From positions 150,203 to 194,431 of the forward strand of contig NW_003135840.1 in NCBI RefSeq assembly GCF_000003605.2: 44,229 nucleotides of DNA, read 5' to 3'. The notes beneath the pieces are model-generated. The model was not told where the DNA came from and did not search any database. It saw only the letters and a list, made by a program, of their open reading frames with translations. This stretch comes from Saccoglossus kowalevskii. Taxonomy: Eukaryota > Hemichordata > Enteropneusta > Harrimaniidae. A program made the position numbers and the translations under genes. Of the stretch, positions 9,412 to 33,301 are shown piece by piece (the first letter of the stretch is position 1; every line of letters starts with the position of its first letter).

Positions 9412-9471
9412 TTAATAATGCGTCGAGTTCTTCTTCCCCAATAACCAATATGTCATCATTGTTCCTTTCCC
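9412..9471 (-). CDS. Cyclase gene A, exon 5 (C terminus)
   Basis: The acceptor is TTTGTTACAG. It encodes [19 protein letters not shown] and a TAA stop. GKG.M.TYWL.G is the standard end of the guanylate cyclase domain, so the gene ends normally. Confidence 0.93.
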   Translation of the reverse strand, partial: GKGTMMTYWLLGKKNSTHY

Positions 9472-12400
9472 CTGTAACAAAGCGAAATATGTGTTATGAA
9501 ATGGACAAGACATGTGAACGCGAAATCAAGTGAAGTCATATAAACCACGGTTACTAAAAAAGACGGTTAGGAAACGATTTTGTTAAAAGGTGTGAATCTG
9601 CCTAATCCCTCAAGGATGCGTGTCGCGCTGTGTACGCCCTCTATTGCTTGAGATTTCAAGGTCCACCATTTTGTTTCATTTTTGTGTCGATAACATGATG
9701 CCCCGCGAATTTGAAATTTTCAGTTCGTTTTCGATAGAATATCCACGTTTATTACGAAGAACTAAATTTACATTTCGGATGAGTACTCTTTGTGACTGTG
9801 ATAACATTCAGAATAGAGAATCGTCATTTATCGTTTTCACTGTTATCCTGAAAGTAAGCTTGAGTCCCGGAAGAAAAAGTGACGAAAATTCTAACCCGTA
9901 AGTCATTATTTCAAAATACATTATATTATAAAAAATACTACCAAATGAATTTTTAGTATACTACTGTGCGTACTTATGACGGTTTTATGTGATTTGGGGG
10001 CTTATTAGAGTACATTTTATCGTTTTGCTTTCGCGTCACTGCCATTTTGTTTAAAGTCTTACCATTTTTTTTGTAGACGCCGTAGAAATCGTTGAAAATG
10101 TATTCAACATTTTCCGCCAGTTTCATAAAATGCCTGTTTAATTGTTCTTGTCTGTCCTTTTTTAGTAACCGTGTATAAACAAAGATGGCGACTTTGTTGC
10201 GCAGATCAACGAGTATAAACTGAGACGTTACTAAGCTAGGTTAGGTATTTTATAAGATGTTTAGAAATTATTGAAGGAGTCATGAGCGGTAATTAGTGCA
10301 AGTCGCGCCCAGGTCGAACCTCATACTTGTGATTCCATTAGAAGAGCGCATTGGATTGTGGGAAAATCAATGTTTATGAACACAGATGTCGCACATGCGC
10401 AGCGCGACTACCGCCCTTTAAATACAGGGCAGTACACTTTGACATAACCGGGACCACAGCGTCATGCCGTATAGCGGGCTACAGTTGGACACCACAGAAC
10501 ATAATGTAATATAGTGGTCCACTACAACAGGTCACATAGTATAGTCACATATGTATAGTACGTTTCTCCACCGTACTAAATTGTGTGTTGAAGGCGGTCC
10601 TATTCCCAGACCGAAGACTGAATGAGTCAACCTCTTAGGAGTTAGGAGAGAAAAAAAGGTATGACATCTTCTTCTACAACATCGACGTGGTCGAATAGAA
10701 TCACTTAGACGAACTCGCTAGGTTGCGCTTGAATTGGATCCGTCGGCGAGGGCGCAAGAACTCATAACTCTCATATATCGTGGAACAAAGTAATATGGTT
10801 AATGCGCGGATCAGTGTAATTACACACATAACAAGGTAAATCATTCTTACCTTTATTTCCATTTGACCACGTGGGCTTAAATTAAACTTCCCCAATATAT
10901 TCAGTATTCTACACGTGCTCTGACTGACTTGAATTCGCCCCGCTGAAATATGAGAGGTTACCCGAATGCGTATCAGGGAAAAAATAACTAAAAGAAGTAA
11001 GTAGCGTGGTGCATAGTTTCATGATTCGATTCAGACAGTGCATTTATTTTTTATGTTTTTTGAATAATTATATTAATCGCCATCTTCGTATTACTAACTT
11101 GACGTATTGAACTCGTACGGTGCTTCTCTTTAGTGGAGCTAGAGCGAGTGACATGGCAGCCATTGTATTTGCAAATGGCTGCCAAAATCTCGTTGATAAC
11201 GAGAAAGCCACGAGACTTTGTTTTTCTCGCTCCTTCTAGTGTCTTATGTCCACCGCTTTACATAGGTCAGGCGAACAGTGAACACTGCGATAAAGACTTC
11301 CCGTTTTCGACATCGTGAAATTTTTTCGTTTTTATGCAGAAAAATACAGTATTTTTACCAAGTAAAATCATATTTATTCAAGTTATTGTTCATACATGAG
11401 TTGTTGAACACACTACATAGTTTGTAATTTCATTCATAATTCAAGACAAAAAAAGCCAAAAATATAGAGAATATAGCGAATTATATTTTTGTGTAATATT
11501 CTTGTGTAGTCGGTAATTATTAAAATTGTTTATAGGTTCATACCATGTCGTTATGAATTATTCTTAATATTTTTCTGAATTTTCTTGTCAAAATCATTTT
11601 TTTTTTCAGTTTTTTTTTCACCAAAAAACGAAAGAAATTCACAATGTCGACGTTAGTGGACGTGAACGCGGTAGAAACACTATTTGTAAGGAGCGGGCAT
11701 AACATTTTGCGTGGCCACGTGATTTAACGTGATCTCAACTGTCATATGCAAATAAGGTGTATTCATAGCATATGAGATGAGAGTTGGTGATTACTTACGC
11801 AAAGAGCTGGATTCCATTCGCGATGCTGTATTCACAGTGTCGCCAAATAAACAATATCTTGGTGTTGCTATGCCAACCACTCCAGCAACACATGAGCCTG
11901 GAAACCGAATGGATGATGCAGCAATATTAACCAAACATGTATACTTTTTTTGCTCTCAACGAAATCTCGACGGCGGTTAATATATCTTCGACGCAAATGA
12001 CCGCTCACATCTCGTCGAAAGCGAGACTTATTGTTCCAAATACCACACTTCATGGGCAGTGATAGATAAAACATATGTATCCTTTACGTTTGAGTTCAAT
12101 TTTCATATCACGTGAACAGGCAGATGGAGCAATGTGTCCTATTAAGTAGCCTAAACTGATTTATAACACATCACTCGTTAATACTGTACTGTAATTGGTC
12201 AAAACAGGATCACGTGTTATCGGCTAAATTACCATAGTAACGCCAGGCAAATTACTAGTTCCTTAGGAAGACTAGTACATCAACAAGTGCCCGAGGATGA
12301 CGTCACTCGTCACCTGATCGTGTGATTTCCAATATGTCGTCTGCTAGTTCGGTCGCTGATATCGATGGTCCGCCTCGAAAGACTGGACGATTTAGCGTCA

Positions 12401-15400
12401 GTTCAGAAGAAGAACTTGACACACTAGTAGAAAATAAAGATGCACCGAAGACGAAGAACGCAGTTAGGTTTTCTAGATGCGTCTTTACATCATTTTGTGA
12501 GGAAATCGGGGGACCGCTAGCAGACGTCGAGAAGAAGACATGCAGTGTGTTTACTAATAATGGTACACTATGAACGTGTAATGTGTTATGTTATATGTGC
12601 TTAAAGGCGTTCCAGGACATCGCAAAAATGAAATGAAAGTGTTAACAATGAAAGTGTGAACGAAAAATATAATAACGAAGTGGGCATAGATTTTGTTGTC
12701 AACTGTCCTCTGTATATTATGTAAATTATAATATTTCCAGGAATACTAGGTCCGTCGACGTCACTGGATAGAAACCTAATCTGTTCCGCCGAGGGAGCAT
12801 GGAAGATACAACAATTGGGCAGATAACGAAATCAAGCAAGCCAATGACAGTGACCATGACCAGTTACTCCCTGTTAATTTTCCTATCTATATTAGAGATC
12901 GAAGGTCTGGCCAACTTTTTATGCATTTCTGACTGCTAACAATTTTGATCAATCTTTTTAACCAGATTGAAAAAACAGGACTTCTAAACTGCACATGCGC
13001 ACGATGGGTGAGCTTTGATCTGATTTCACGTTACAAAACCAATCGAATGCATTACCGAGAACTTGGAAGGGAATTCCGTGTCATCGTTTATCTTGACCGA
13101 TCAACAACTGAATCGACGATGATTATAGCAGCCACTAGAGCGTTTGAAATGCAGTCTTCTTGCACGGCACTACCTTGACAACCTATCGTCTCGCTAGTAT
13201 CATGCCTTTCTTTTTTCCAGTGTGTTGACAAGTGTGCCCTCTTTGGCAAGTTGATATCCTGCCTTTTGTTTGATTTCCATTGCCATTAAAGGAAACATCA
13301 AGCCAAACAACATAATGACCCTCAAGGAAAAGCTCCACAAATGTAAGAGAATGCAATTTACAGTTTTTTTATATCACTTTTCATTCTCTAGATATTCAAC
13401 TTTTCATCAGTATTATGTAGTCAGCCTTCTTGATTCTCAAGCAAAGGATCATGAGTAAAGTATGACATCATAGAATCTGTTGTCAGAAATTGAGAAAATG
13501 ATTTCATCGAGTTTGCGAGTCCGTGTGATTCTTACGATGGTTACCCATAAAAACGGATCAATTTTTAGTGTAACATTCCTATATGAAAGTACCCCATGCA
13601 ATGTAACCGACCTCGGAAATCATCTAATTAACTTAAATCTGTGGATTGTCTCCTTCAACGACAATGCCACAATCAGTTGCCAATTAAGATCACATTTCTG
13701 GCTGATTAGGTGACATATATGCTCCCGTAACTGAATTCCACTTATTTGACGACTGAATGACGTCAAACGCCTTACCGGAATTAAGTCCGCATCTTAGTTC
13801 TAGCTTCAGATTGTCATATCCGGGTACCTTTATTTCTCCCATACTGCGTTGCATATGCAGTGCCATCATAGCGACCTCACCGGCGTGTCGATTTCCATTC
13901 CGGTTAGGCAAACCTACAAAGGATGAGTATTATTATTCGCATATACGTCAGACCACGTTCATTGCCTCGATTTTTTTTATAGAAAATGTTGGACAAAATT
14001 CCTCAAATTTCTCATTTAGAATAAACTACAATTACTTGTAATTGTAAATAAGTTTTCTAAAACTATTCGTAAAATAAATATAAAGCGATATAGATCAAAC
14101 TCATAGAGTTCGCAGAAGCTATATGCTAAACCCCGCACCTTCACTTTCACGTAAATTTAGCTCCTAACATGATTTTTTATAAAACAAATAATTTATCATT
14201 TTAAGACGTACACTTGAGTGGCTATTAAAACAATTCCAAACAAATGGATATATTTTGAAAATTTTATTGTTTTTAATCGTCCGTTCACCATACAGAGAAG
14301 CCATTTTACAGACATACATTGGAGCCTTAATTATGGGGGCATATAAGGGTGCAATCAAATCATCACGCGGAAATCCGCAACTCTGTGCGTTTAAGTTTGG
14401 GTTAGTTACCGTGCTCGAAGACAAGGGCAGTACAAGAATTATCGTTCACATCCGATCTGACACTATGTTATTCTAACAAACCCAGTACCGCGTGTTTGAC
14501 AGTTTACTCGCAATGTACTCTGGTGAGTACAGTCAGCTGGGGGGGGGGTCTAACCATGAACTTCTCTGTGCGGGTGATCACACAGCCAATGCATATATAC
14601 ATATACTGTATGTACAAGAATATGACAAATCACAACTATTGTATGAATAATTAAAAAAAATATTTTCAGCTGCTTTTACCTGATACACACATGTAGACTT
14701 CGCCGATTGTCTCCACTTTGTAAACATCATATAGCTTAATTCGAGCATCAAAACATGAATATAGACTATTCAACATACGTATAACATTCACTGGGTTCAT
14801 CATGGTTACATATTTCATGAAGTCTACTACATCAGAAAAGAACACGGTTACCTCCTCGAATGTTTCCGCCTTGTTGTGCTTATTGTTCTTGAGGTCTTCG
14901 GCCACTTTCGCCGGTAACATCTGAGTTAACAGCCCGTCTGCTTTTCTTTTCTCGGTGTTTAACATGGAGGTTTGTCCTGCAATTTTTTCAACTGATTCCC
15001 GTAGTTGCTTAGTGATATTAAGGATGATTCCTAGTGTAACGGGGGCTACAATAGCGCTTACTAACAAAGCAAGCACGTCCAAGAACAGGTTCATTTTCGT
15101 CGATGTGCTCATGCTGTCCAAGTCGGCGATGCTCAAATTCTCGATTCGATGTACTGAATCAGTTACCGCAAGAGATAGTGTATACAAGTTATCCACATAC
15201 TCCCTCCATTGCCCTACTGTTGTCTCGTTGTCGCCGTCTAGGTAGTCCATTCTCAGGTTTCTACGTGTGGTTTCTATGGAATACTGGGAATCCGAGCTCA
15301 GAACAGCAACATTCTCCGTGAACGTGTCCTTAACATCAGGCGAATACGCCATAGCGGCGTTAATGGTCATGCTCCCAACACTAACGGCTCGGCAATACAT

Positions 15401-16123
15401 CAGGAAATACTCGTATGTTGGGAATGTGAAATTAAAAAAATAAAGCTGCCCAACCATTCTCTCAACCTCTATATTTTCTTGAGTTTTTATCAACATTAAA
15501 TAAGACATCAAGTTCTGCCAGATATCGCCTTCATCGATGGTTTGTATGGCTAATAAGATTTGCGTAGTCAGGTAAGCGATGTCGTCTTGGTACTTAACCA
15601 CTGTCTCAAACAGGCCAGTGTAGTCGGTTATTATTGTATTTTCATAAAAGCGAACCACATCTTCCCCTGATTCAAATGTATTGTTATTTATTATCAATGA
15701 CCTGCTTGACCAAGGGAATTTAGCCAATGACTTATTGCAGCACGTATATGGTGGAGGGACACGCGAGTTCGATACAGTTCTGTTAACGATAAACGAGTTA
15801 ACCAAGCTGCAGCGCTCTGCCTCAATATACGTTATCACATCGTACAAATGTGTGCTTGAAATCAGGACGTCTTCATCGGTGGCAATTGACTTGCTCTTAT
15901 GCGCGTGATCATGTATTCCTACACTTATCACAGAGAACAAAATAACAACTGGCGTCACAAACAACACTATGAGCTTCAACATAGGCCCCTTTTTCAGCCT
16001 GGATGAAAGCTCTGACTTATTTACAAACCACGCTCGTTTTCTCAGCGTCGTCTGCGACGCCTTTAAGTCCACCGTCCGAACATCGTCCACTTTGTTGCGC
16101 TTTTTCGAAGGCATTGCTAGCAT
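9412..16123 (-). CDS. NIT-type membrane guanylate cyclase, gene A (five coding exons)
   Basis: Joining 16123-14680, 13913-13776, 11897-11799, 10942-10851 and 9471-9412 on the minus strand gives an uninterrupted 610-residue protein. All introns are GT-AG with phases 1, 1, 1 and 0. The layout is: short cytosolic N terminus, membrane segment about 49-70, extracellular NIT-like helical region about 75-340 with several N-glycosylation sequons, membrane segment about 346-368, a helical linker, then a class III cyclase domain from about 420. Guanine-selecting residues are present (Glu471 in YKVETIG, Cys543 in PRYCLFGD), as are catalytic Asn550 and Arg554 in [10 protein letters not shown] and the first metal Asp431 in FFSDVV. 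The second metal Asp is Glu475 (GEVYM instead of GDAYM) and the usual GFT after the first Asp reads DFM. The start is the first ATG in frame; ATG 16114 is an alternative. Confidence 0.88.
9546..10173. mobile_element. 628-bp TIR element with 7-bp target duplication, inside intron 4 of gene A
   Basis: The ends are 17-bp perfect inverted repeats (CACGGTTACTAAAAAAG and its complement), flanked by TATAAAC at 9539-9545 and 10174-10180. The inside has no recognisable transposase. The insertion point matches ATAAAC within the family 2 element at 7607-7905, and the sequence to its right continues as that family, so the element appears to have landed in an older copy. A 7-bp duplication with CA-starting ends would suit P-superfamily or other less common elements; I cannot decide. 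Confidence 0.8.
10174..10417. mobile_element. Family 2 MITE, right-hand part, split by a later insertion
   Basis: The sequence follows the copy at 7607-7905 from ATAAAC.GAGATGGCGACTTT to the right end CGCGACTACCGCCCT and TTAA (10418-10421). The left part is cut off by the 628-bp element; the bases left of 9539 resemble the missing part only weakly. Confidence 0.7.
10851..10942 (-). CDS. Cyclase gene A, exon 4 (92 bp)
   Basis: The acceptor is CATATTTCAG and the donor GTAAGA. It encodes [19 protein letters not shown] and then [11 protein letters not shown], matching the cyclase pattern IHVS...L and RG.IEVKG near the domain end. Confidence 0.9.
11155..11204. repeat. Two adjacent small hairpins in intron 3 of gene A
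   Basis: GGCAGCCATT (11155-11164) faces AATGGCTGCC (11174-11183), followed by TCTCGTTGATAACGAGA. The string AATCTCGTTGA also occurs in the hairpin near 8650, and close variants occur around 11950-12030, so this is probably a degraded member of a small inverted-repeat family. Confidence 0.4.
11799..11897 (-). CDS. Cyclase gene A, exon 3 (99 bp, catalytic Asn/Arg)
   Basis: The acceptor is GGTTTCCAG and the donor GTAAGT. It encodes [19 protein letters not shown] followed by [10 protein letters not shown]. The guanine-contact Cys, the ribose-orienting Asn and the transition-state Arg are all present. The open frame on the opposite strand across this exon is only its antisense shadow. Confidence 0.93.
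12334..12573 (+). pseudogene. Possible fragment of a Crypton / DUF3504-type recombinase N-terminal region
   Basis: This is a 79-codon ATG frame within intron 2 of gene A, on the opposite strand. It contains [20 protein letters not shown] and then [15 protein letters not shown], which resembles the helical N-terminal pattern (a Glu-rich start, then L...KD...TK.A.....VF..) found in animal Crypton-derived proteins with a DUF3504-like tyrosine recombinase. No catalytic part follows and the frame stops soon after, so if the match is right this is a fragment. It rests on pattern memory only. Confidence 0.35.
13776..13913 (-). CDS. Cyclase gene A, exon 2 (138 bp)
   Basis: The acceptor is CTTTGTAG and the donor GTAAGG. 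It encodes [20 protein letters not shown] and onward to CGLNSG, the cyclase segment that normally reads NG.RHA.EIA...L and IGIHSG. It has the same length and phase as exon 2 of gene B. Confidence 0.92.
14680..16123 (-). CDS. Cyclase gene A, exon 1
   Basis: This exon encodes residues 1-481 plus the first base of Gly482: N terminus, both membrane segments, the NIT-like region, the linker ([15 protein letters not shown]) and the start of the cyclase domain up to VSG. The frame upstream of the ATG at 16123 stays open only a few codons with a TTG. The donor is G followed by GTAAAA at 14679-14674. Confidence 0.9.
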
Positions 16124-16135
16124 TGGGAGAAACAA

Positions 16136-16505
16136 CGCAGGTTTCTCTCTTCGCTGGGTTCAATTCAATTCAAGGATTCCGTGATACCTACAGAAAAAAT
16201 AGACAAGGTACTAGTATGCTATTGTATCTCGAAATTAAACAAGCGAAATGACATGATATCTGTTCGTTGCAATCATTTTTCAGTGGATAGACGATTTATG
16301 TATGAAATGCTACCCTTACACGTAACGTGGAAATAGAGAACACTCATGTCATTATATTTTGATTATATCTAGTTTTGTTGAATGACCTTCGTTTTAGCGA
16401 ATTGAATGGAAGGTGAAACATCTACGATCTTATACCGATATACATTAGCGTTTAACACCAAACCACAGTGTTACGCCAAATCGTGTTGTACTAGTATATG
16501 GATGA
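16136..16505. other. 5' flank of cyclase gene A
   Basis: This should contain the 5' UTR and promoter of gene A. I see no convincing TATA box or other core element and no gene. Confidence 0.4.
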
Positions 16506-16530
16506 TTGCAACTGTACCTTAAGAGTAGAC

Positions 16531-16663
16531 GCCCTGTCTCACGTTCCAAACCCGTGATCGAGGCTGTCGCGCCGACGATGTGCTTCTGGTCCACGCGTTT
16601 AGCATGTGATCGAAACGACGAGCTCTTGTCTCGAACTTCATGCCCGTACTCGATGCTGTCGCC
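16531..16663. repeat. Imperfect direct repeat, about 91-bp period
   Basis: About 40 bp around CCGTGATCGAGGCTGTCG (16552-16569) recur around CCGTACTCGATGCTGTCG (16644-16661). The stretch is richer in GC than its surroundings. I do not know its origin. Confidence 0.45.
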
Positions 16664-16716
16664 GCCAATGGGTTGTGGTCATTCGACGTAGGAGAAGCTC
16701 AATGACGAGCGATTAC

Positions 16717-16879
16717 ATGTGATTGGATAGCCGTCGTGTATAATAATTTGCGTAGTCTCGGGGAAATTAGGATACCGTGATTTTACAAGGTCGGTGTCAT
16801 TTGACGATCCATACACGCCGGTATATGCGACAACAAGACAGGCTACCAGAGATGTACCCAAGTGACATGCAATAGACAA
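16717..16879 (-). pseudogene. Possible lipase (AB-hydrolase lipase family) first-exon remnant
   Basis: The minus-strand frame reads as a hydrophobic leader (LGTSLVACLVVAYTGVYG) followed by a short polar stretch and PETTQIIIHDGYP. The order and spacing (leader, then ..I..HGYP about 50 residues in) resemble acid and gastric lipase N termini. Against it, no ATG starts this frame back to the upstream stop, the frame ends soon after GYP (a weak donor GTAATC lies at 16716), and the next lipase exon is not visible. It may be a decayed copy or a chance likeness. Confidence 0.3.
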
Positions 16880-17221
16880 GTATATGATTTTCCGGTAAGT
16901 TTATGTTTAATGTTCGAAGTGACACTGCGCTTATAGAACTAGGCTAAGCTTAGATTCAGGTTTCATTTGGATGTATTTGCTGTGTTTAGTTTCCATGGCA
17001 GCCAGGTGATCAAAACGGAAACAGTTCGATCATATAATTTCAACGTAAAATTTAGACGCAGCAAAGAAGCACTTATAGGATTCCAAACCATAGATACGGT
17101 TTCCAGTCATAAATCAAGGTCAGAATACCGGCCGCCCAGTAAGTTCACATCGTGCAAATCTATTTCCGTAAATTGAACAAGAACTACAAAAGTTATAAGA
17201 ATTTAATGAGTGCCAGGCAGG

Positions 17222-17346
<125 letters not shown>

Positions 17347-17872
17347 ACAATGGCAATGGTGTAAAATGTATTTAGGTGAAAATGTATAAGAAGCGAAGCT
17401 CTCTCTCAATTTAAACATCTACTTTTTTGCCTCGCATTCTAGGAGATTTGCTGAACAACTGTTTATATGTGTTTTCCTTGACATATTGGAAGCATTTCAA
17501 CTCCAATGTAAGATATATGTTCGGTTTCATAACTATATCTCTACTGAACGTCCTTATTTCCTTGAGTATATCTTTAAAAACGTACACTAGCTGTCCGGGG
17601 ATTATATGGTCTGGCAAATCGTTTATATAAAACAGAAATATAAGCTACCCCATAATAGAACACAAGATAAGGTGCGCCAGTTATAGAGCGGTGCATTCAG
17701 TAGTCGCTGGGTGTTTGTTACTGGGATAAGAAGCTTCCCATTTGTGTAAGGTTACCATGCAAACATTACGTTTGCAATTTATTCGAGTGAAGAGTGTGGG
17801 GAACGAAATCAAACGCGTAGAGAAGGCGAGTTCATTTCAACCTAGGAAAAACCTGAGCAAAATGAGTTGTAC

Positions 17873-18086
17873 CTTCAAACAATATCCTGATGGTCTTGAC
17901 AGTTTGAAATGGTCTTCACAGACGACATTATTTGCCCTGAAATCCGTACCAATATTTGCCTCCCATATAACATAAAGCGATCTTCTTTTTTTAGGACATG
18001 GGAAAGTAAAAAAAAAAAGAAGATTTTTCTTTGCCGTGTCGGTCCTTGTCGTTTGCGCACCCATAATATTTGCAGGTCGGCATCAT
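17873..18086 (-). pseudogene. THAP zinc-finger exon with a frameshift in a homopolymer
   Basis: From the ATG at 18086 the minus strand reads MMPTCKYYGCANDKDRHGKE, then SSFFF. The next part of the domain continues in another frame: TFPCPKKRRSLYVIWEANIG, then NNVVCEDHFK and SGYCLK. Together these give the C2CH zinc-binding signature of THAP domains (C-x4-C, FP, a conserved Trp, C-x2-H-F), a DNA-binding module of P-element and Kolobok transposases and of host THAP proteins. The break falls in a run of 11 A at 18008-18018 (plus strand), one base away from keeping frame, so it may be a sequencing error or a real mutation. A donor GTACAA follows at 17872. No later exons are evident. Confidence 0.7.
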
Positions 18087-20664
18087 TCTAGAACACAGCT
18101 TTCCGCGGGATCCGCAAATACAACCAATGGTTTCAACACAGTTTGCTAGCAACGAGCATAAATTTTGACTCCCCAAAAAGTTTTTGAACGAATGCCCCCT
18201 ATGTTGCTATTAATTAATCAGACGATATTACGTCACAGTTACAATTTAATAGACAGTCATAACTGCATGAAGGCGTTTTTATTTAGAACAATGGCGGTGT
18301 ATGTAACCTTTGGGAGACATGTATTAAAACCCCCAGAATGTGACACACATTCAATTTCAAACAACAACAAATGCATTTGAATTAACAAAATATAGACACG
18401 TGATGAGCCAACTATAAAATTCGCAACTTTGACTTCCCCTTTAATATTGGAACAAATAGAATCATTCATTTGGTATTTTATCAGCACATAACAAATGTGC
18501 AAAGGTATGGTGGTCAGTTGGTATGTGCAGGCTACATAGTCTGTTCCGCGCACTTTGTTTATATTTGAATGACTTAGAACGTTGATGACCTCTTTACCAC
18601 TTATATGTACATTTCCAGAATTTTGGTAAGTTGCATACTATCTAGGTCAACAAACTATAGCCAATCAAATTAGAGCATTACAGGTAAACATATTCCGTTG
18701 CCGTCTTTATCATTTTATTGGGCTACATATTGGACGAGCTGTCGTCACGAGGTGTAAAGCATTTTGATGATGTCTTGCCAAGTTGTCAAGCCAGACAACA
18801 TAGCAAAACTGACCATGTCAAAATTATCGCACGTTTTCCAAATTATTGCCAACATGAAGTGCACAAATATATTACCCACCAGATGCAAAGAAACGGAATG
18901 AAAATCTGCATGCTAAAGTATGCAGCCTGTTAATTTGACATTTTGTGTTCATGTTTGTCGAGATAGGACATGACAAATAAAATAATAGCCACAATTTTCT
19001 GAGAATATAAATATTATTTTTGTTTTCCTTGCGCCTCGGTGAATAATTATCACCATCTCTGGAAGGTAAATTTGTATGTTCCTTCACTCAAATTGACAAA
19101 CCAGATCTCAAAGGGCATCAATGTTATTAGATTGGTGTACTAGAGCCCCATATTGATTAGACGCCTAGAGCAGGATTTGCCCACTCTTTCCGAAACACCT
19201 GGCTGGCAGCACCCTACTGGCTATACACCTAGGGTCCGTTCATTAATCTTTCATGTTTTTTTAAGCTTTGAATACGTTATTTGGTTGTAGTTGATTTACG
19301 CTCATGAACCTGTATTTATCTATGTTTGATTGCGCGTAATGACATGGTTGCGCCATTTTCATCACCGATGATTTTCATGTTTTTTTTTGAACTGAGCACT
19401 CCCGCCATATCCTGGTACGCTAATTCTTCAAATATTTCTTTCATCTCGTCAGAATTTCATTCGTCTCACCCGGAAATAAGGTATTGTTAAAATAAAACAT
19501 TAGTCTCTCTAATAACCCAGTACTGCCTACATCTTTTTATCAAAACTATGATGCTCCTAACTACTCTTTTCTTTCGAATGTTCGAATTACACTCATGGAT
19601 CGGCAACTTGTTTATTAGACGGATTCATCTAGGTTGTTAAGCAGTATACATTTTTGGATTGTTCGTACACTCTCACAATAATCACTCTAACCATATATTT
19701 GCAGACCAACATTTCATTCATTCACATGACGAAAAAACAAACAAACATGAGTTGCCATGACCTTGTTCACGTGGTTTAGGTGAATAGCGGAAGAAGTGGA
19801 TTAACAAGCATACTAACTTAATGCATACCGCTGCAGTGTTATGGCACACTGTGGATATCATTAGCGACACGGATTCTATTCAATTCGTCCCATGATACGA
19901 TTACGGCACTCATCTTCCTTTAATTTCCCGCAGAGCCAGTTTTATTGTAATAGCTTCATTTTTTTCCATAGCTCCCTCGTTTGAGATATAAGTTGATTGA
20001 TGGATTTTTTAAAGTCGAGAGCAATTCACACAAATTGACAAATTTGAACAAACGCTGAAAACGTCTCTTTGTCAGATTCTTAATTCCGCCGTAATTTAGT
20101 GAATAATCTGAGCAAATTAAAAAATCTTCTTTCCAACTCAAAATCTTTCTTTTCAAATCCCGTTAATTGTGATTGCGTCTACAAACAGCGTACAAGAAAT
20201 TAAAATGGCATACTCATGTAATAGAATGAAATACTAGGAAGAATAATATTACGCTTTATCACTAAATTTACGTAAAAACCCGAACCGTCACGTTATATCA
20301 CTTAATATGACACTTAGTGGTAAACTGAAGAAATGTCAGAACCACTGACAATACAAAACGATCCCGGAGCCATTCGTAAAAAAATACTATGTAACATGTA
20401 TAATCACTTTGATTTGGCTATAATAAATGTTATTCATCTAATAGGTAAATATTGTGCAAAGAGAATACAATGTTGTTAATTGAATTGGCTCTCGAATTTT
20501 TAATATTCAAAAAAGTAATGTTACTTTGGCATATGATGATAAGTCTGTACTTTGAATTCAGGCGGGAATTTTAGAACATAAATGATGTAATCGTAGGGAG
20601 ATAATAATAACGCGATGCATTGAATTTATGAGGTGATTTAAACCGTAAAATATATAATCATATG

Positions 20665-22857: not shown

Positions 22858-23012
22858 TGATTACGTAATTATTTTTGTATGATATGATGCGACGTAATAT
22901 GAGTAACTGAAAAAAGTGAGTATATGTTGAGCTTAGAAAGAGTACTTTATCATAATATCTACCTAGTGTTACACTAAGCCTTAACCGTGTGTAAAACATT
23001 TCACGTTGTATA
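22858..23012. repeat. Diverged repeat, copy 1
   Basis: About 150 bp align with 23497-23650: ATGATATGA..CGTAATA, then AAAAAGTGAGTATATGT, then TCATAATAT, then CTAAGCC.TAACC and CACGTTGTA, with many small differences. No coding content. Confidence 0.6.
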
Positions 23013-23033
23013 CTTGTTTTTTTAATTAGCGTC

Positions 23034-23184
23034 GTATAATATGAGGTCATTACGAGGATACCTCAAAGTATGCACGAAAACAGTGCAGCGGAAATATCGA
23101 CCGACGCGCAGCGGAGGTCGATGCGACGGTGTACTGTATGAGTGAATACTTTGAGGTATTCTCGTAATAACCTTATTATTATAC
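23034..23184. mobile_element. Long inverted-repeat element (151 bp)
   Basis: The left arm at 23034-23071 and right arm at 23146-23184 are near-perfect inverted repeats of 38-39 bp; both contain TACCTCAAAGTAT or its complement. The 74-bp loop includes CGACGCGCAGCGGAGGTCGA. This is a typical non-autonomous fold-back element. The target duplication is not clear. Confidence 0.7.
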
Positions 23185-23418
23185 ATCTTTTTTGTCCAAG
23201 GATACATCATGGAAATGCCGAAACGTTTAGAACAAAATCAGCGAACTTCTTTGTGTGGTGTTCGGTCAAACCCTGGTAGCAGCCATGTTTGTTTTTCTTA
23301 TTAGAGGACGCTTACGCGCGTAATCATTCCATATTTGGAATTCACATTTCCTAATATGGTAGGATGAAAATACCACGTAAAATACCACGAAATTAAACAA
23401 AATTATTGACAAATGTAC

Positions 23419-23419
<1 letters not shown>

Positions 23420-23496
<77 letters not shown>
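23420..23496. repeat. AAT microsatellite, about 25 units
   Basis: Uninterrupted trinucleotide run. It produces the poly-isoleucine frame on the minus strand, which is not a gene. Confidence 0.97.
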
Positions 23497-23650
23497 TACT
23501 TTTACGTAACTACGTTGATATGATATGACGTAATACATGTAACTAACTAGAAAAAAAAGTGAGTATATGTGACAGGGAGTGTACTTCATCATAATATATA
23601 TCTCGTGCTGCCCTAAGCCGTAACCTGGTGTAAAAAGCACGTTGTACATT
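23497..23650. repeat. Diverged repeat, copy 2
   Basis: Second copy of the repeat at 22858-23012 in the same orientation, directly following the AAT microsatellite. Confidence 0.6.
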
Positions 23651-25519
23651 TGAAGTGATACTGTTATTGCACAGCGTCGTGTATGATATGCGTCTAATAC
23701 GAAGTACATAACTCGTGTGAAATGCAATGTATGTTTTACATATTTGGCTTACATTTTCCGAATAAATCGGTGAATGTTTATAACAAATTAAACCCTTCAA
23801 TATTGTGATAGGGCATTTTCCGCGGCGATCGCATTGGGATCACAGCTACACGAGCTTTGTAACTTTCATATTTCTGAAATTTCGGCTTTGTTGAAAACGA
23901 ACTCTATGCAGACCGATAGGTAACCCCCCTAAAAAAACATTATATATAATATTTAACAAGACAAGTGTAATTGCATTAACCGTATGTGATGACACTATCA
24001 GAAAAGCCAAATTAGGTCATATTAAACTTCAAAATAAATTAATGTTAACATAAGCACATGGAACTCAACTCATTATTTGTATCTTACAGCACAGCACAAA
24101 AAATGAATCCAGATACCAGTAGGAGCATGGCTTTCGATATCACGCATCGAAGTAACTGCCCTTGGGGTATAAAGACGTTTGTAGACTAGAAAGTAATAAT
24201 AAAGATTCCCCCCTGCGCTATGTTCGGCGGACTCCCGCTAATCGATAATGAATAATTATAATGAAGATGGTAACGTTTCCTTATTAGATTCTTATCTTGT
24301 TAAATTACAACTTTAAAATTTAATCATTCTGTAAAACCCCGCTAATAGATGTAACTTGGTTCCAATTATTTGTTTCAATCCATCGGATATGATTAGTGAT
24401 TTGATTCCGGTAATCCCAAGGTCTAACAATAGTGGATAAGCGCTGGCCTCCACGAGCAGTAGCATAATTGAGAGACTACTCCAATGTCATTATCACATCC
24501 GAATCCTGTGTGTTGAATTGTTTACAACTTATCTTGTGTATAATATTAACACTTCCCACAATACCGTCTAACAAAAACAGCACACACACACACACAGCGA
24601 CATTGGTATTATACTAACGTTGACATTTTGAACTAACACTACCATAAAAACATTTACGACATTGTAAAATTCTTTGGAGAAGAAAATTTATATTAAGAAT
24701 AATTCATAACGAAATGTATTCTATATGCACACAATTGATAATTTTCGTAATTATCGATTACAAGTTTAGTAAAAGAAAAAAAAGCATATTTGCTATATTC
24801 TCTACAATTCATACATGAACAATCATTTAATAGAAATAATTTTACTTTGTAAAAATACTGTACTTTCTGCGTAAAAACGAAAGAATTGCACAATGTCGAA
24901 AACGGAGTATTTATCGTAGTGTTACCTACAGCCAAGTCTGTCAACGTCGTGACATGAATCCTTCTTGATTTGTCAAACAATTTTCTTGCTAGTACAGTAT
25001 TAGCCTAGACTGGAACATTATAAAGTTAGCCCGATATCAAATTTACATAAAATATTATAATCTTACCCATTTAAACTAAGCGATATAATAAAGGTAGGTA
25101 GACTCGTGACTGTACCTGCCCTGTAACACGATTAACCTATTTTACAATGACAATGCCAGCAAAATATTTACAATGGTTGCCATGGCTACACTTGTAGTTG
25201 TTATTGAAGAAATGAGATACTGTAATTCATACAACGAAGCTGAAACTACGTGTGTATAGAGCGGAAGTGGCGTCATGAGAAGGGCGAGATAGACAGAATA
25301 ACTCACACCTTAAATGTGTTTATTTCTGTACACTCATGTCTGTAGGTATATGCCCTAGGATATGTTATGACTGTTTGTTCACAGAGTCGATGTGTGTATG
25401 TCTTGATTGGTGGCCAATGTGATTGAGGCGGTTACATGTTCTCAGGAAGTACTACGAAGACCGATTCATCGTACAACCATAAAACTGCGATAGATTGTAT
25501 ATTGTAATTCGTCAGAAGG

Positions 25520-26960
25520 ATGTCGAGTGCTTTGCGACGATTAAATAGATCTATAGCCTCGAAGCAGCCCGAACAAAGTAGTGTGTCCATGCCTAGTTAC
25601 GACACTGCCAGCAGTGCGGTGACTACTGTTTCCACCATGCTAGCCGGCAAGTGCTGTTTCCGTAACAGCTCGCCATCCCAGCTAGAACATAGGTGTCAGC
25701 TTTTCAAAGTGATTTTATGCTACATGATTCCGATTTTCATATTCATCGTGTACAGCTGCTTTCAGTTATCGGAGCGTCTCACTTTGCAGCAAGAACTCAC
25801 ATTTGTTAAAGAACACATGGGAAAAAGCACGAAAACTAGGCAGCTCGTGGCCAATGTTCAGATAGAAAGGGGTCTGACAGTCATGTACCTGTATAGTCGT
25901 GAAGATAATGTATACGAACTTTTGCAAGACATTTATAACCGAACTGACGCCATTGTGTTGTCCGACAACGGTGCGAACGAGGTAAGTCGGCATCATATAT
26001 GGGCGAACCTTACAGAGTTCAGGCAAGATGTATTGGTTACAAATGTAACCACGTATGACGTTCTAAATTTTTATACTTATAGTATTAATGAGAATTTTGG
26101 GACGATATTTGGGAGAATCTTCGAAAATATGGTTTTCATATCAAACTTTTGGACGCGAGTTGCATTCTACTGGTACGGTCTGTTGTCAACTGATTCATAT
26201 GGTATACAGCGAGCGCTGGGAAGCGCATATTTCTTACAAGGACACATTTTGTCTACCGAGGAATTTATGTATTTTCATGATAATTACTTCCGCGGGCAAG
26301 AACAATTTGAAACTGCTCAGAGTCTCCACGCCACCCTAGGCATGGAAGCAACAATGTCGGCGTCTTGGAATATAAGCAGTATTGTACGTCAAAAGATTGC
26401 AAACCGGGAACCTATAAGTGGAACATTAAATGAAAATATGTGGTTCGAAAATATGTCCATTGTCATTTCACATATTTTTAGCACCGTTGAAGAAGAATCA
26501 AATAATGTTATAAACATTCTAGATGCAAACATTGAGACGGCAGAATTATCAATTATTGTAATCAGTTCACTTATCTGCATCATGCTAATTCTGACAGTGG
26601 TACTGGTAGCCGTGGTCAATTCGTCAATGAAAGAAATACAGGGACTACTATCCTTGTTACGACGACAGTCTAGAGTACTGAACAAAGAGAAGAAACGAAC
26701 AGACATGTTATTAAACTCTATGCTACCGAGAGCAGTTAGCGAAGAACTCAAACGCACCGGGAGAGTTGCTGCCGAAACATTTGATGATTGTTCCATTTAT
26801 TTCTCTGACATCGTGGGATTCACTACTATTTGTTCAACCCTGAATCCGATGGAAGTTGTCGCAATGTTGAATGCCCTGTATTCTTTGTTTGATGCGCGTA
26901 TTGCAATATATGACTGTTACAAAGTGGAAACAATCGGCGATGCATACATGGTGACTTCGG
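25520..26960 (+). CDS. Cyclase gene B, exon 1
   Basis: Encodes residues 1-480 plus the first base of Gly481: N terminus, both membrane segments, NIT region, linker ([15 protein letters not shown]) and the cyclase core through GDAYMVTSG. The donor is GTAAGT at 26961. Confidence 0.94.
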
Positions 26961-29900
26961 GTAAGTGACGAATACGTATATTTAGTTTTAGTATGGGTAT
27001 CGCGGTGAGTAGAATATCGTTAACATATAGCAGATATTCTGATATTTCAATCTCATCAATTAAATTATTTTTCTTGACATTTACCGGTGACCAAAGATGT
27101 TCATGCGGGTTTTTCCAAAAAGATCATAAAATAAAACCAGATTATAAGATCAAAGAAATCTGATCTGTTTTAATAATATCCATCTTACCTTGCAGTATGG
27201 GAACAATGAGTATTAGTTTAGACCAAGTATTATTGATTCAATAAGTGACATACCCATTGAATTACATTGACAAAACTGCGAACGTATTCACAATTCTTGT
27301 TATGGTATGCATATTTGAGATTATCCTAGTTTATAGTCGATTGTCCTCTAAGGACTTGGGAAAGCGTTAAACATAATCTCAGTGTTTGCTCTGAGAAATT
27401 TCGAACTATCGTATGACAGGAAAATAACTGTATGTTATTTTTTCCCAGGCATCAGGTAATTGATTCCTACGTATCTGTTTACATATTGTGAACTTTTTAT
27501 GAAGTATATAATCATGTAACTACAAACTATGTTTAATTACGTTTTAAATCAAACAACCTCTGGCGACAAATGTCACTATACCAATGCAGCTATCCAATTT
27601 GTAACCATACTTTTATTTCCGTGTCGTTCCCAGGAGTTCCTGTACCTAATGGTAATAAACACGTCTCAGAAATTGCTTCATTGGCACTAGATCTGCAGAC
27701 ACAGGTGTCCATGCTATCAGTTCCACATAAACCACAGGAGAAAATGAAAATGCGAATCGGAATTCATTCAGGTAGATCCATTGTTCTTAGTATTTCAACG
27801 AGGATTCATTAGACCCCGAGTTAAAACCACGTTACATTCACCAACATCTCGCGTGATATTTGATTGAGACAGATCTAATTTTTGTTGTCTCGTCAGTTTT
27901 CTAGATGTACTGATGCAAAAAATATTAGAAAAAAATGAAACATTTTTATGATTATAAACAAAAATATGCAACTGGGTATAGATCTTTGTTTCATGTTACT
28001 AAATGATCACAAAGACTAATGTAATAGTAGAGAAAGCGCAGAGAGTTGCGACAATTTCAATCCAAATTGTCCTTCAACTTTACAACACTATAAGTACGTA
28101 TTTCGCTAGTCTTGTTTCCGTTTACCTATTTGTTCATCCGATTCGTAAGTCTTCATTACAATAACATAGTTCTTAGTGACGTCATTTGTGAACTATATGA
28201 TATAGACATACGTCATCTTGGCAGAGACTTTATTAAATACAACGTTCGTTGACATGAGAAGTCACGATTAAACTTACGATTACATATTAATGCTACTTAG
28301 TCGTCAACAGTTTTGATCATGATCATTTTGATCACCTGCATTTCTTTTTCACGGAATATAAATAATTATTTTAGTGTCTTTAAATGAGGAATTTACCATG
28401 CAGCGTATGCCAACAAAAAGTTCTATGAACGTGTGAACTGAATGACGACCACATTTAGCGAGTGATAGAATGACTTATTGATTAAGTGATTGAGTGCTTA
28501 AGCGAGTGAGTGAGTAGTCGCATAATATATAGTGATTCCAGTTACAAAGATAATGCATATATCTAACTAGTTGATGAGAATGCCCTCATTCTTGACATGT
28601 TACCAGTGGGTTCGTTTTACGAATTTCCAATAGTTTACAAATGGTCATCGCGTCCACTGCAGTGATTACCCTATTTCGGAGAATAACAAGTCTCGTGACA
28701 CACTCTCGTGCCCAGCAAGACCTCGGCGGCCATTAACAAATGAGGTCTGTTAAGTTAGGATTGTTGATATTAGTTTAATCACAGTATTAGATATATGGTA
28801 GCCATATATATCGCTTTTGACATATTGAAATACTTTTGTTAAGGGGAAAAGTAATTTAAATTTTTAGCGATTACACATGAATACTATAAAAACGCTATTT
28901 TTTATATTCTATATATGTTTGCATTTTATTTGTCTTGTATTAAGACTGAAATAAGGTGAATGAAATTACAGACTATGTAGTGTCTTCAACAACAATGGGC
29001 AATATTTAATAACTATGATTTCACTTGCCATGGTAAAAATATATTTTTCTGCATAAAAACGTTAGTGTTAAAGCGCGGTGGTCGTCGCGCAGCGCGTGTT
29101 CGAATTTCATGTAAATAAACAATGTATTTTACACGCGTTGTGTACGTCGCTAAGAGTCCCATATCGAACAGGACGCGGCACGACGACTGCCGCCCTTTAA
29201 CATTGTGTGTCTGCAAAATAATCAGTACTTGTGGGAATTTTTGTTTTAATCTAGCAATTGATGTTTTTATGTTTTCTGATGTAAGACAAGTATTAAATAT
29301 GTTTTATTAATTCGTGGTAGAATATTAATGATTGTATGTGTCGTGAACTCAATGGAATTAATAGAAAGTGAAACATTACACAATTGTAATTTATTGACAC
29401 TTAAATCCCGTGTAAAATAAAGAACGGCACATAAGTTTATATTCTTGCTACCATAATTGGACACATAATAATTGTATTATACGACTGAAGCAGACATCAA
29501 GGCCTTAGAAATCATTACTTCTTCCTATCGTACCTCAACATACAGTTCGAACTTACACTAAGGACACAGTTTTTAATTTTTCATGATTTAGACTATTAAA
29601 ATGGCAGTGATTAGTATAGCAAGTTAGACTTAATGTTCACACTATATGCGCGATGTTATTCGTGTGATATGTTGGCATATGTCTGTATAGATGAATACCA
29701 ATCTTCGTGATGATGGATTGTCAAGCTGAGGTCAAAGCAACTCATTATGTAGTTATACGTACAAACTATTTCATATTACATATTTCGTTACTAAATAAAT
29801 GTAATCATGTCTCTTAATTGGTTGGAATATTCCACTCATAGAGTTGATGTCATAAATTCTAAACTCAGTAGTGATTCCGGTGCCTTTGCTTTAAATTGTG

Positions 29901-32900
29901 TTGTATCTTGTGATGATTATCTTTCCGTCATCTGTCAGTGGATACATACTGAAGACTTTGTAATTGTTTGCTGAAAACACAGTGGTGAACGTGCAACTGA
30001 TAGAATTAGATCTCTTGGTCAGATGGAAGCCATCTAAACCACAAACCATCAAATAGTGATAATAGTGTTCGTGAAGTGTAATGGGTGGCGCAGTGAGTGT
30101 TATGTGACAAGTAACACGTGAGCCTGCAGTGGAGACGCGATTGTCGTGATCTTGAGTTGGAATTCTGTATTCTACATTGTATTACTTGTCTGTGTGTTAG
30201 AATGTACAATTTCTTAAATACACTGTTCTTTAAAGCTCATTGTTGATCATGGGCGATCAATGAGTGTACGCTGCCTACAAGTACTTTCACTAATGTAATA
30301 TATGATTCATTTTTAAGGTTCTTGTGTGGCTGGCGTAGTAGGGACAACCATGCCTAGGTATTGCATGCTGGGAATTACCGTCAGCATAGCGTCTAAAATG
30401 GAATCACACGGGCAAGGTGAGTTCACTTACAGACACAGACACATTAGTTGAGTCTGCAATAACCTACGATGTTACGGATAAGGATTAGTTTATCATTATC
30501 TTAGATATCAAGATGATTCATACAAAGTGATTTCAGTTTAAAACTTGGCGATGTAAATCTCTTTTCGAATCGACTCTAGAATCTATAATGCTTAAGCCAC
30601 GCGTGCATTCGTGGTGTAGACGCCATGCATAATCCCGTACTCTACCGCTCCAATAACTAGTTAATATCGATGTTTGTACGAGAATTGAAGCATCGATGTG
30701 AATCATAGAAATGACAACTCTGATTACAATTAATAAAGTGTATATTAGTTTTATAACAGTACACATGTAACTCGGTGAATGATTTTCCATTGCGTTTTAT
30801 CACGGTTTAATCTATATTTAGAATCCCACTAGCGGAAAAGATGATTTCATGATGAATTGAGAAATTCTTCTTGTCTCGTCGAGTCTTCACTTCCTGGAAA
30901 TAAACGGATTAATTTCAGTGTCACCACCTGCTGCCCTTAGTGAAATATCCCGGATGTAACTCACCTCGGGGGGTTTCTATCAGCAACGAATTATGATGTG
31001 GATTTAGACAGTAGTAGTTCAATCTGTAGCTCCTGCTAAATTTTGTCACGCTACTGTAAACACAGCGAATACATAACTGGTCGTTTCACGAAAACATGTT
31101 TTTGTCCAATCTAATCAGTTTCTACTTAAAATTGACTTCCACCGAGAGAATTGTCAAAGTAAATGGATAAAGTAAAAGGTTACTTCATTTTGAAATCAAC
31201 ATCATTAAATTTATACCGCGATTAGAATATTCATAATACTAAGCTCCACGAATAAGATTGTATAAAATTGTATACCAAACACTGCGATCGGGTGGATATT
31301 CTATAGCTTTTAATCAAGTTCGAAATTTGGTCACAACGAACATTACGCTGACAAATGTGTAAAGTGTATTGTAATCAATTAAACTACGTCAGTTGTATAG
31401 CTTGTAATCTCGATAAACCAATGAGATGCCATCCTCTGTGTAATGTCGAATATTGTACTCCGTCTCGCAGATGTAAATAGTTTGACATCACGTGTATGGA
31501 CAAGACTATTGGCACAGTGTGCAAAACATCACTCGAATGGTTTAATCCATTGCTTTTCTTCAAAAAACAATAATCAACAATATATCATTATAAAATGTCA
31601 TCGAGAATGTATTAATTTGTTTACAGCCGGGAAGATTCACGTTAGTCAAGAGGCCTACAGAAGGCTGAACGACTTTGGTGGTTTTGAACTTGAGGAAAGG
31701 GGAATAATAGACGTGAAGGTGAGTATATGTACTTTTTTGACAGTTAGTTGCATTTCATTTTCTTTTCAAATAAGGAGCTAAGCTTCAAATAACTCACTTT
31801 CAATTTTACAAAATTTAGGAAATAAAAAGCAATGTTCTGTCTTATGTTTACGTGATAACAAAACATGGACAAGGATGTATACAAATAATGGACGACGCAT
31901 GGAAAAAGTTGTCAGATAACAACAGTTCCCTAATATGGGGTTATGTGGTTCGTAATATTACTCATAATGCTTTTTGGTTCACGGGTAAAATAAAATAAAA
32001 GACGATCACGTAACAGTACAAAAACACCTTGGAACCCCGTAGGCAGGCCGGTGACACCGGTTCGCACTTAAGGGGGTACCAACCCCCTGCCAAATTCCAA
32101 GGGAAAATCAAAACATTTAAAACACAGAACAAGTAACATAAAACATATATGCGCTGCTGTAAGTGTGTGCAATGATAGCCCACCAAGAGGACAAAACTCT
32201 TGGCTCCTGTGCGTGTACTAAGTTTGTAAATACAATGATGTTCGTTTGTATCGATGTTNNNNNNNNNNNNNNNNNNNNNNNNNNNNNNNNNNNNNNNNNN
32301 NNNNNNNNTTTTTGACAGTTAGTTGCATTTCATTTTCTTTTCAAATAAGGAGCTAAGCTTCAAATAACTCACTTTCAATTTTACAAAATTTAGGAAATAA
32401 AAAGCAATGTTCTGTCTTATGTTTACGTGATAACAAAACATGGACAAGGATGTATACAAATAATGGACGACGCATGGAAAAAGTTGTCAGATAACAACAG
32501 TTCCCTAATATGGGGTTATGTGGTTCGTAATATTACTCATAATATTGTATGATATAATTAATAATATTGAATATACTATAGTATATGATAATATTGTATA
32601 AATATAATTTCCTTTCCGAAATCAATATGAATAGTGAAAATACATACAAACCCGTATGTTCGAGAAGACGGACAGAATAGAATAAAACACGATAGAGTAT
32701 TTACTGATTGAGTGTTGTCGGCGCTGAATCTGTATTATGTCGTTCATGTCGGTTACTGGCCAAGGCATCGTGTGCGCCACATTGAATCGTGTTCATGAGG
32801 CCCACTTTGTTCGCCGATTTGCTCATTTACTGTTTTATGAATGCCAATCGTGTGCATGTTGTCTAATATGTGATGTGCTCGACTAAAGGTTGAGCAAAAC

Positions 32901-33301
32901 AGTATCAATAAAATATTGAAAAATGTTTGATAATTTCCGAAAAGATTGGTATTGCTGTATGCAAAATAAAAACACATAGTAATGAACCACATTTTCGAGA
33001 GAAAAAACGTGCGTGTATTTTAGCCTTGTTATAGGGTCAATACGCTGGACTTTACGAAGAAAAGCAAAACACGGGTACGCCCTTTCAGTTACAAGTAGAA
33101 ATTACTTTTATAAAACATAGCACCTGTATTGACAAACCTCAATGACTCAGATTTCGATTTTGCGTATAAAGTTTTCCAAGTCATTCTCAACAAATATTAT
33201 GATGTGTTATTTTTTAGGATGCAGGACTTATGAAAACGTACTGGCTGTTACGTAAAAAGGGAATATCATCCAAGCACCTAAACACACTCAGCGTTGCGTG
33301 A
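25520..33301 (+). CDS. NIT-type membrane guanylate cyclase, gene B (five coding exons)
   Basis: Joining 25520-26960, 27634-27771, 30318-30416, 31627-31718 and 33218-33301 gives a 617-residue protein with GT-AG introns in phases 1, 1, 1 and 0, as in gene A. Layout: cytosolic N terminus, membrane segment about 62-83, extracellular NIT region about 95-340 ([16 protein letters not shown] fits the NIT helix Q.ERG motif), membrane segment about 343-366, helical linker, cyclase domain from about 418. Both metal aspartates are present (Asp430 in YFSDIVGFT, Asp474 in GDAYM), with guanine-selecting Glu470 and Cys542. The catalytic Asn and Arg are replaced: [10 protein letters not shown] reads [10 protein letters not shown] (Ser549, Lys553), and GDTV reads GITV. 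NIT cyclases are thought to sense nitrogen oxides and make cGMP; whether this one does so alone is doubtful. Confidence 0.92.
27634..27771 (+). CDS. Cyclase gene B, exon 2 (138 bp)
   Basis: The acceptor is CGTTCCCAG and the donor GTAGAT. It encodes [20 protein letters not shown] and onward to RIGIHSG. The frame upstream of the acceptor is intron read-through. Confidence 0.94.
29072..29196. mobile_element. TTAA-flanked MITE, family 3, in intron 2 of gene B
   Basis: 125 bp between TTAA at 29068-29071 and 29197-29200, with imperfect inverted ends beginning AGCGCGGTGGTCGTCGCG and ending CGACGACTGCCGCCCT. The minus-strand frame across it recurs in the copy at 33645-33755 and is not a gene. Confidence 0.8.
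30318..30416 (+). CDS. Cyclase gene B, exon 3 (99 bp, altered catalytic residues)
   Basis: The acceptor is TTTTTAAG and the donor GTGAGT. It encodes [20 protein letters not shown] and then [12 protein letters not shown]. The guanine-contact Cys is kept; the catalytic Asn and Arg positions hold Ser and Lys. Confidence 0.93.
31627..31718 (+). CDS. Cyclase gene B, exon 4 (92 bp)
   Basis: The acceptor is TTGTTTACAG and the donor GTGAGT. It encodes [20 protein letters not shown] and then [10 protein letters not shown], the expected segment before the last exon. Confidence 0.93.
31734..31968. repeat. 235-bp duplicated segment, copy 1
   Basis: Appears identical base for base to 32309-32543. It begins 16 bp into intron 4 of gene B. 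Confidence 0.9.
32027..32102. other. 76-nt segment with nested complementary stems
   Basis: CCTTGGAA at the left end pairs with TTCCAAGG at the right end. Inside lie two more hairpins, CCGGTG/CACCGG (32048-32060) and GGGGGT/ACCAACCCCC (32072-32087). The size and paired ends recall a cloverleaf, and GGTTCG is present, but it does not match a canonical tRNA or its promoter boxes. Confidence 0.35.
32259..32308. other. Assembly gap (50 N) in intron 4 of gene B
   Basis: Exactly 50 unresolved bases, directly followed by the second copy of the 235-bp segment. Confidence 0.95.
32309..32543. repeat. 235-bp duplicated segment, copy 2
   Basis: Begins at the first base after the N gap and matches 31734-31968 throughout. 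It probably reflects a misjoined or haplotypic contig end rather than a biological repeat. Confidence 0.9.
33218..33301 (+). CDS. Cyclase gene B, exon 5 (C terminus)
   Basis: The acceptor is ATTTTTTAG. It encodes [20 protein letters not shown], then LNTLSVA and TGA. The family end motif GKG.M.TYWLLG is recognisable though GKG is changed to DAG. It lies beyond the assembly gap and duplicated segment in intron 4. Confidence 0.88.
   Translation, partial: DAGLMKTYWLLRKKGISSKHLNTLSVA

Follow-up and report, generated by a model that had tools for sequence, protein, structure and literature searches.

In class III nucleotide cyclases, one subunit gives the metal-binding Asp residues of the catalytic site, and the other gives its Glu and Cys together with the catalytic Asn and Arg. 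In soluble guanylate cyclase, neither homodimer rebuilds such a site and the mixed dimer can (PMC3591389; papers are cited by PubMed Central identifier, and each is represented here by excerpts). Among membrane enzymes, the nematode proteins ODR-1 and DAF-11 have been described as obligate heterodimers to which each member contributes catalytic residues (PMC5225109); both intracellular parts were needed in fusions, proof for the native proteins is awaited and homodimers are possible, and several nematode cyclases have been proposed as obligate heterodimers from their missing residues (PMC8045692). The chytrid NeoR and RGC proteins are membrane cyclases active only as heterodimers, and their genes are clustered and divergent (PMC7655827, PMC8815786). 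The NIT guanylate cyclases of metazoans, found in many bilaterian lineages, carry a NIT domain between two transmembrane segments, followed by the cyclase domain (PMC7400543, PMC1592074). In the placozoan members two arginines are thought to bind the ligand (PMC7400543), and in the annelid Platynereis NIT-GC1 and NIT-GC2 are reported to occupy different regions of one photoreceptor cell (PMC10584369). Here we describe two neighbouring genes with the same arrangement, A (with a NIT-like region) and B, in a 44,229-nucleotide stretch of contig NW_003135840.1 of the hemichordate Saccoglossus kowalevskii (the window), whose products have lost residues on complementary halves of the catalytic site.

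The initial annotation had held that B keeps both metal Asp residues and has lost the catalytic Asn and Arg, that A keeps the latter two and has lost the second metal Asp, and that both retain the guanine-selecting Glu and Cys. Every residue that it named is borne out by the codons: Asp431 (GAT), Glu471 (GAG), Glu475 (GAA), Cys543 (TGT), Asn550 (AAT) and Arg554 (CGA) in A, and Asp430 (GAC), Glu470 (GAA), Asp474 (GAT), Cys542 (TGC), Ser549 (AGC) and Lys553 (AAA) in B. Glu471/Cys543 and Glu470/Cys542 are the guanine-selecting pairs of A and B, respectively; Glu475 of A stands at the second metal-Asp position, and Ser549 and Lys553 of B stand in place of the catalytic Asn and Arg. The complementary losses are real and broader than had been claimed. 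On the metal side, where GC-A reads DIVGFT-IGD-R, B is identical and A reads DVVDFM-IGE-R, its phosphate motif GFT having become D-F-M (Asp434, Met436). On the base side, A is identical to GC-A, and B is altered from GDTVNT to GITVSI (Ile546, Ser549, Ile550) and, in the KGKG loop, to KDAG (Asp591, Ala592). A retains Asp431 and the LRCG-strand Arg, and its base half is complete. Judging from the sequence, the Ile-to-Val change on its metal side, which is also found at the related loci C1002 and C4724 (see below), is probably neutral, and the telling changes would be Asp434, Met436 and Glu475. Neither protein has a complete standard site, as had been proposed: B has Ser549 and Lys553, and A has Glu475, Asp434 and Met436. 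Sequencing error, which had been named as a possible refutation, was rejected as the source of this pattern, because a single base error could give Glu475, Ser549 or Lys553 singly and each gene carries several changes on one half.

The partition was quantified with a list of guanosine triphosphate (GTP) contacts from a simulation of human soluble cyclase (PMC7289801), in which the alpha side provides the contacts to metal and phosphate and the beta side those to the base, the ribose and the transition state. These contacts were mapped onto A, B and their relatives through alignments to PDB chains, and the columns counted are those at which GC-A and GC-C agree. A is changed at 4/10 metal and 0/18 base columns, and B at 0/10 and 7/18 (Fisher p = 0.003; this and the following tests are rough, because the columns were taken as independent and the reference rows are few). 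When agreement of the canonical paralogue C1002a was also required, the counts were 2/8 and 0/18 for A and 0/8 and 7/18 for B (p = 0.028). Of the other conserved columns, 26/90 are changed in A and 20/90 in B, so that the base half of A is better kept than the rest of its conserved columns (p = 0.0058).

The residue states parallel those of soluble cyclase, with which the initial annotation had compared the pair, B resembling alpha and A resembling beta. The soluble alpha chains of human and of Manduca have CLFGNNVTLANK and CLFGHNVTLANK, respectively, and the replacement in B of Asn by a small polar residue and of Arg by Lys repeats the alpha state of both species (Thr, Lys); in human soluble beta, the sequence around the first metal position is GIVGFN. 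In adenylyl cyclase 8 (AC8), the C1 half reads ...VDIANK and the C2 half is without both Asp residues, and Lys553 and Ile550 of B are the residues of C1. The loss in B is thus of the alpha/C1 kind, down to Lys for Arg, and that in A of a milder, beta/C2 kind. Scored against both halves of AC8 (C1 minus C2), B gave +6, A -69, GC-A -71 and C1002a -55. Of the receptor-type rows extending to the C-terminus (A, B, C53, C1002a, C1002b, GC-A and GC-C), only B has a higher score to C1 than to C2, and the difference is small; C4506a/b, which have no C-terminus, and C1859, which is partial, are not comparable in this scoring. The better score of A to C2 was dismissed as evidence, since GC-A and C1002 share that lean.

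In the gene models built from the window, A (minus strand, 610 amino acids) and B (plus strand, 617 amino acids) are two complete five-exon genes with uninterrupted frames and GT..AG introns throughout (Table 1). They lie head to head, with start codons 9.4 kb apart and transcription directed away from each other. Exons 2, 3 and 4 are equal in length (138, 99 and 92 nucleotides) and in phase between the two genes. The rebuilt stop codons, at 9412 for A and 33301 for B, match exactly the span first given for the pair. A prokaryotic origin of the window was rejected in view of these introns and of the genome size of 572 Mb.

Both proteins have the order transmembrane segment (TM), NIT region, TM, helix and cyclase, with two hydrophobic segments flanking the NIT region of each. 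The Guanylate_cyc family (PF00211) matches exon 1 of A (3.4e-18) and of B (6.7e-21) and three further exon frames, two of A and one of B. The NIT family (PF08376) matches B at 2.3e-11 and 45 bits against a Pfam cut-off of 24.9; the corresponding region of A reaches only 13-14 bits, under that cut-off, and can be aligned with its counterpart in B. Both keep the E-R and R..G residues of this alignment, whose arginines may correspond to the two putative ligand-binding arginines of the placozoan proteins. Up to E 1, a profile search of PDB matched 47 distinct sequences, of which all but one are cyclases, and did not reach a solved NIT relative; the exception, a sigma factor (E 0.19), was set aside as a chance match. 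An NCBIfam scan of both exon-1 proteins gave no family. Identity with soluble guanylate cyclase was rejected: HNOB gave no match at E up to 10, each protein has two hydrophobic segments, and HNOBA was matched over its last 42-43 positions only (22-24 bits). Two pattern scans for relatives in viral contigs gave 3 and 34 stretches, none of which was confirmed.

The same genome (572 Mb, 4830 contigs) was searched with PF00211 (103 exon matches), with PF08376 (10 matches, E up to 1) and with the exon-1 proteins of A and B (36 and 20 matches). At least nine related loci were found besides A and B, several of them broken or incomplete as assembled. C1002a/b are tandem and near-identical, with the key catalytic residues present; C4506a/b are convergent and near-identical, and have the key residues save for a Ser-to-Ala change beside Arg. 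Both pairs, with branches of 0.01-0.04, represent recent duplication or unmerged haplotypes. C53 (C53:361240-364773), which was assigned to the family by its helix-cyclase region, has an intact metal half and a base half changed to YLFGYSVRIASR, in which Tyr replaces the Cys of the guanine position and Arg the catalytic Asn. With its base pocket altered in this way, it is a candidate for a further alpha-like pseudo-subunit besides B, and could give metal Asp residues to A. C4066 is a copy of C53 with NIT pieces present and its frames broken as assembled, and the assembled sequence of C1859 has an apparent frame break of one base. C4724 (C4724:238490-246700) holds the best Pfam NIT match in the genome (106 bits); its open exon ends just past the first metal Asp, and neither the 4 kb that follow nor the PF00211 search of its contig yielded a cyclase exon. 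At C3647 the NIT exon and the last two exons were found, and the middle was not.

The metal and base changes number 0/10 and 5/17 in C53, 2/10 and 0/18 in C1002a, 3/10 and 1/18 in C1002b, 0/10 and 1/15 in C4506a, and 3/10 and 4/17 in the broken C1859, with C53 taken without its upstream part, C4506a/b without exons 4-5 and C1859 with unknown residues across the frame break. C4066 was excluded from the alignment, counts and trees, and C3647 entered no tree or count; C4724 was used to its exon end only and left out of the cyclase-only tree, and the trees did not include the AC8 rows. The loci with readable catalytic exons yielded no second A-like subunit. In short, complementary half-sites coexist with full sites in this genome.

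In the cyclase domain, A and B are 50% identical. A nine-row whole-protein tree gives its longest branches to A (2.43 as drawn, 2.63 in the listed values) and B (1.99), then to C1859 (1.9), with C53 and C4724 at about 1.1. The view of A and B as proven sister duplicates was dropped, the tree giving it no support (p-value of the approximately unbiased test, p-AU, 0.446); their common exon structure and adjacent position suggest that the two arose by an ancient local duplication.

We read A and B as diverged NIT membrane guanylate cyclase paralogues, each of which has become one half of a class III heterodimer, a plausible, not proven, interpretation to which we give an even chance. B would take the alpha/C1 role and supply the two metal Asp residues and the phosphate loop; A, in the beta/C2 role, would provide the Lys loop, the Glu and Cys that select guanine, and the Asn and Arg that serve the transition state. 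By the logic of soluble cyclase, in which the mixed dimer rebuilds the site, an A:B dimer would have one full site, consisting of Asp430, Asp474, GFT and Arg of B with Glu471, Cys543, Asn550, Arg554 and the Lys loop of A, and one degenerate site. B:B would be without Asn and Arg, and A:A would carry Glu475 and DFM, so both homodimers would be weak or dead. The dimer would be held by the membrane-proximal signalling helix, and the NIT ectodomains, which may sense nitrate, nitrite or nitric oxide (NO), would open and close the site. A and B would have to occur in the same cell and to pair with each other over the other NIT cyclases; their adjacency, divergent orientation and common exon lengths and phases favour such a partnership. 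Tentatively, one may go further and suppose that a membrane counterpart of soluble cyclase arose independently in the NIT family, with B as the metal subunit with the better NIT domain and A as the base subunit with a degenerate one. This would be a two-part nitrogen-oxide receptor with one working site and one vacant, regulatable pseudo-site, encoded by a divergent gene pair.

Several results weigh against the heterodimer. The metal half of B shows no significant excess of conservation over the rest of its conserved columns (p = 0.205), and the canonical C1002a and C1002b lean the same way as A, so that the excess of A over its relatives is smaller than it first appears. The tree test neither favours nor rejects a clade of A and B, the same holds for B with C53 (p-AU 0.398), and relaxed constraint, too, would produce long branches such as those of A and B. 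Possible partners for A or B exist at five of the nine other loci, namely the near-canonical C1002a/b and C4506a/b and, with its metal half kept, C53. The weak link is A itself: Asp-to-Glu at position 475 is conservative and keeps the charge, and metal binding may tolerate it, in which case A could work alone (the excerpts of PMC2447327 and PMC1435932 contain nothing on Asp-to-Glu at the metal site or on NIT cyclases). Of the obligate A:B heterodimer first proposed, therefore, the partition of the site stands, and the obligation goes beyond the evidence.

It is doubtful that A and B are half-enzymes whose partners are other NIT cyclases (B and C53 with a canonical subunit, for example C1002 or C4506; A with such a subunit or with C53), their head-to-head position being a leftover of an old duplication. 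The four near-canonical loci and C53 do exist, and two other adjacent near-identical pairs in the family, C1002a/b and C4506a/b, mean that adjacency alone says little. However, constant pairing with a full enzyme would bring a half-enzyme no gain in catalysis, which makes near-perfect retention of one half less expected, and A and B are still neighbours despite their divergence. We consider it unlikely that A is an active homodimer, using Glu475 as the second metal Asp, with B as a silent subunit that damps or retargets it. The retention in A of Asp431, the LRCG-strand Arg and the full base half, and the preserved charge, would fit this, but the GFT motif, whose Gly, Phe and Thr contact phosphates in the simulation (PMC7289801), is lost in A, and a metal half unchanged at 10/10 columns in B would be needless in a purely inhibitory subunit. 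Highly improbable, finally, is the view of both as drifting remnants without cyclase activity, partitioned by chance. The frames are complete (610 and 617 codons, with introns of the GT..AG type), which speaks against drift, as do the base half of A (0/18 against 26/90 elsewhere) and C1859, a broken locus that is changed on both halves, unlike A and B; on the other side stand the two longest branches of the family in this genome and the other loci that are broken or incomplete as assembled (C1859, C4066, C3647 and C4724).

Table 1. Positions in the window of the exons of genes A and B, selected codons and the space between the genes
Feature	Position	Strand	Content
Gene A exon 1	14680..16123	-	N-terminus, TM1 (residues 45-72), NIT-like extracellular region, TM2 (residues 341-372), signalling helix, start of cyclase with Asp431 and Glu475
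Gene A exon 2	13776..13913	-	138 nucleotides, both ends phase 1
Gene A exon 3	11799..11897	-	99 nucleotides; base-side motif intact; Cys543, Asn550, Arg554
Gene A exon 4	10851..10942	-	92 nucleotides
Gene A exon 5	9412..9471	-	KGKG loop completed, intact; stop codon
A Glu475 codon GAA, second metal-Asp position	14699..14701	-	
Gene B exon 1	25520..26960	+	TM1 (residues 58-84), NIT domain, TM2 (residues 336-373), signalling helix, start of cyclase with Asp430 and Asp474
Gene B exon 2	27634..27771	+	138 nucleotides
Gene B exon 3	30318..30416	+	99 nucleotides; degenerate motif with Ile546, Ser549, Ile550 and Lys553; Cys542 retained
Gene B exon 4	31627..31718	+	92 nucleotides
Gene B exon 5	33218..33301	+	KDAG replaces KGKG; stop codon
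B Ser549 codon AGC, catalytic Asn position	30383..30385	+	
B Lys553 codon AAA, catalytic Arg position	30395..30397	+	
A-B intergenic space	16124..25519	.	9.4 kb between start codons; N gap 20665-20846

No third cyclase was found when the A and B proteins were compared with the window (tblastn, E<0.1). The space between the genes contains long simple repeats at about 17210-17360 and at 23403-23495, which appear in translated frames as LFIY runs and Ile/Leu/Asn runs. In intron 4 of B, a direct repeat of 235 nucleotides (31734-31968 and 32309-32543, 100% identical) lies on either side of an N gap (32259-32308); it appears to be a duplication introduced at the gap during assembly, and the exons are unaffected. 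Adjoining the 3' end of A, an uninterrupted frame of 605 codons (5751-7568, plus strand) matches the Branch family of core-2/I-branching enzymes (2.2e-37) and is apparently an intronless glycosyltransferase gene. Ten other frames of the window matched no Pfam family.

If the heterodimer is real, the NIT enzymes would join the cyclase families that turned a homodimer into a heterodimer by dividing the active site. This little-studied group would gain a simple prediction, namely that cyclic guanosine monophosphate (cGMP) is made only where both genes are expressed. It would also help to explain why an animal has multiple NIT cyclase genes, a few receptors allowing combinatorial sensing. According to the initial annotation, a membrane NIT pair of this kind is not known to have been described, and no heterodimeric NIT cyclase is described in the excerpts of PMC7400543, PMC10073611, PMC1592074, PMC10584369 and PMC11412693, a scope that is without the primary Platynereis paper and does not establish absence in print; membrane heterodimers as such are preceded by ODR-1/DAF-11 and NeoR/RGC. 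The placozoan and Platynereis proteins are like A and B in domain order, but the same excerpts describe no complementary loss or heterodimer for them.

The closest likeness is to soluble guanylate cyclase. Its alpha1 subunit, like B, keeps the metal Asp residues and has lost Asn and Arg (Thr, Lys), and its beta1 subunit, like A, keeps Asn and Arg and has lost one metal Asp (Gly), the dimer having one complete and one pseudosymmetric site. However, soluble cyclase is cytosolic with a haem H-NOX sensor, its beta subunit lost the first metal Asp whereas A lost the second, and the Arg574 position is also lost in beta and not in A. In mammalian transmembrane adenylyl cyclase the division is again that of B and A, AC8 C1 having the metal Asp residues and Lys at the Arg position, and C2 supplying Asn and Arg with both Asp residues lost, but both halves lie in one chain and the product is cyclic adenosine monophosphate. 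NeoR/RGC differ in their rhodopsin sensor and in that RGC1 and RGC2 retain all known cyclization residues, according to the excerpts of the NeoR/RGC papers, and because these residues are intact their heterodimer obligation is probably not catalytic. ODR-1 and DAF-11, compared by description only, are like A and B membrane guanylate cyclases that each lack residues supplied by the other, although their family typically has a kinase-homology domain, and no NIT domain is mentioned in the excerpts. Dimers built on complementary loss are thus already known in soluble and adenylyl cyclases and proposed or partly shown in ODR-1/DAF-11, and A and B would represent the NIT-family variant.

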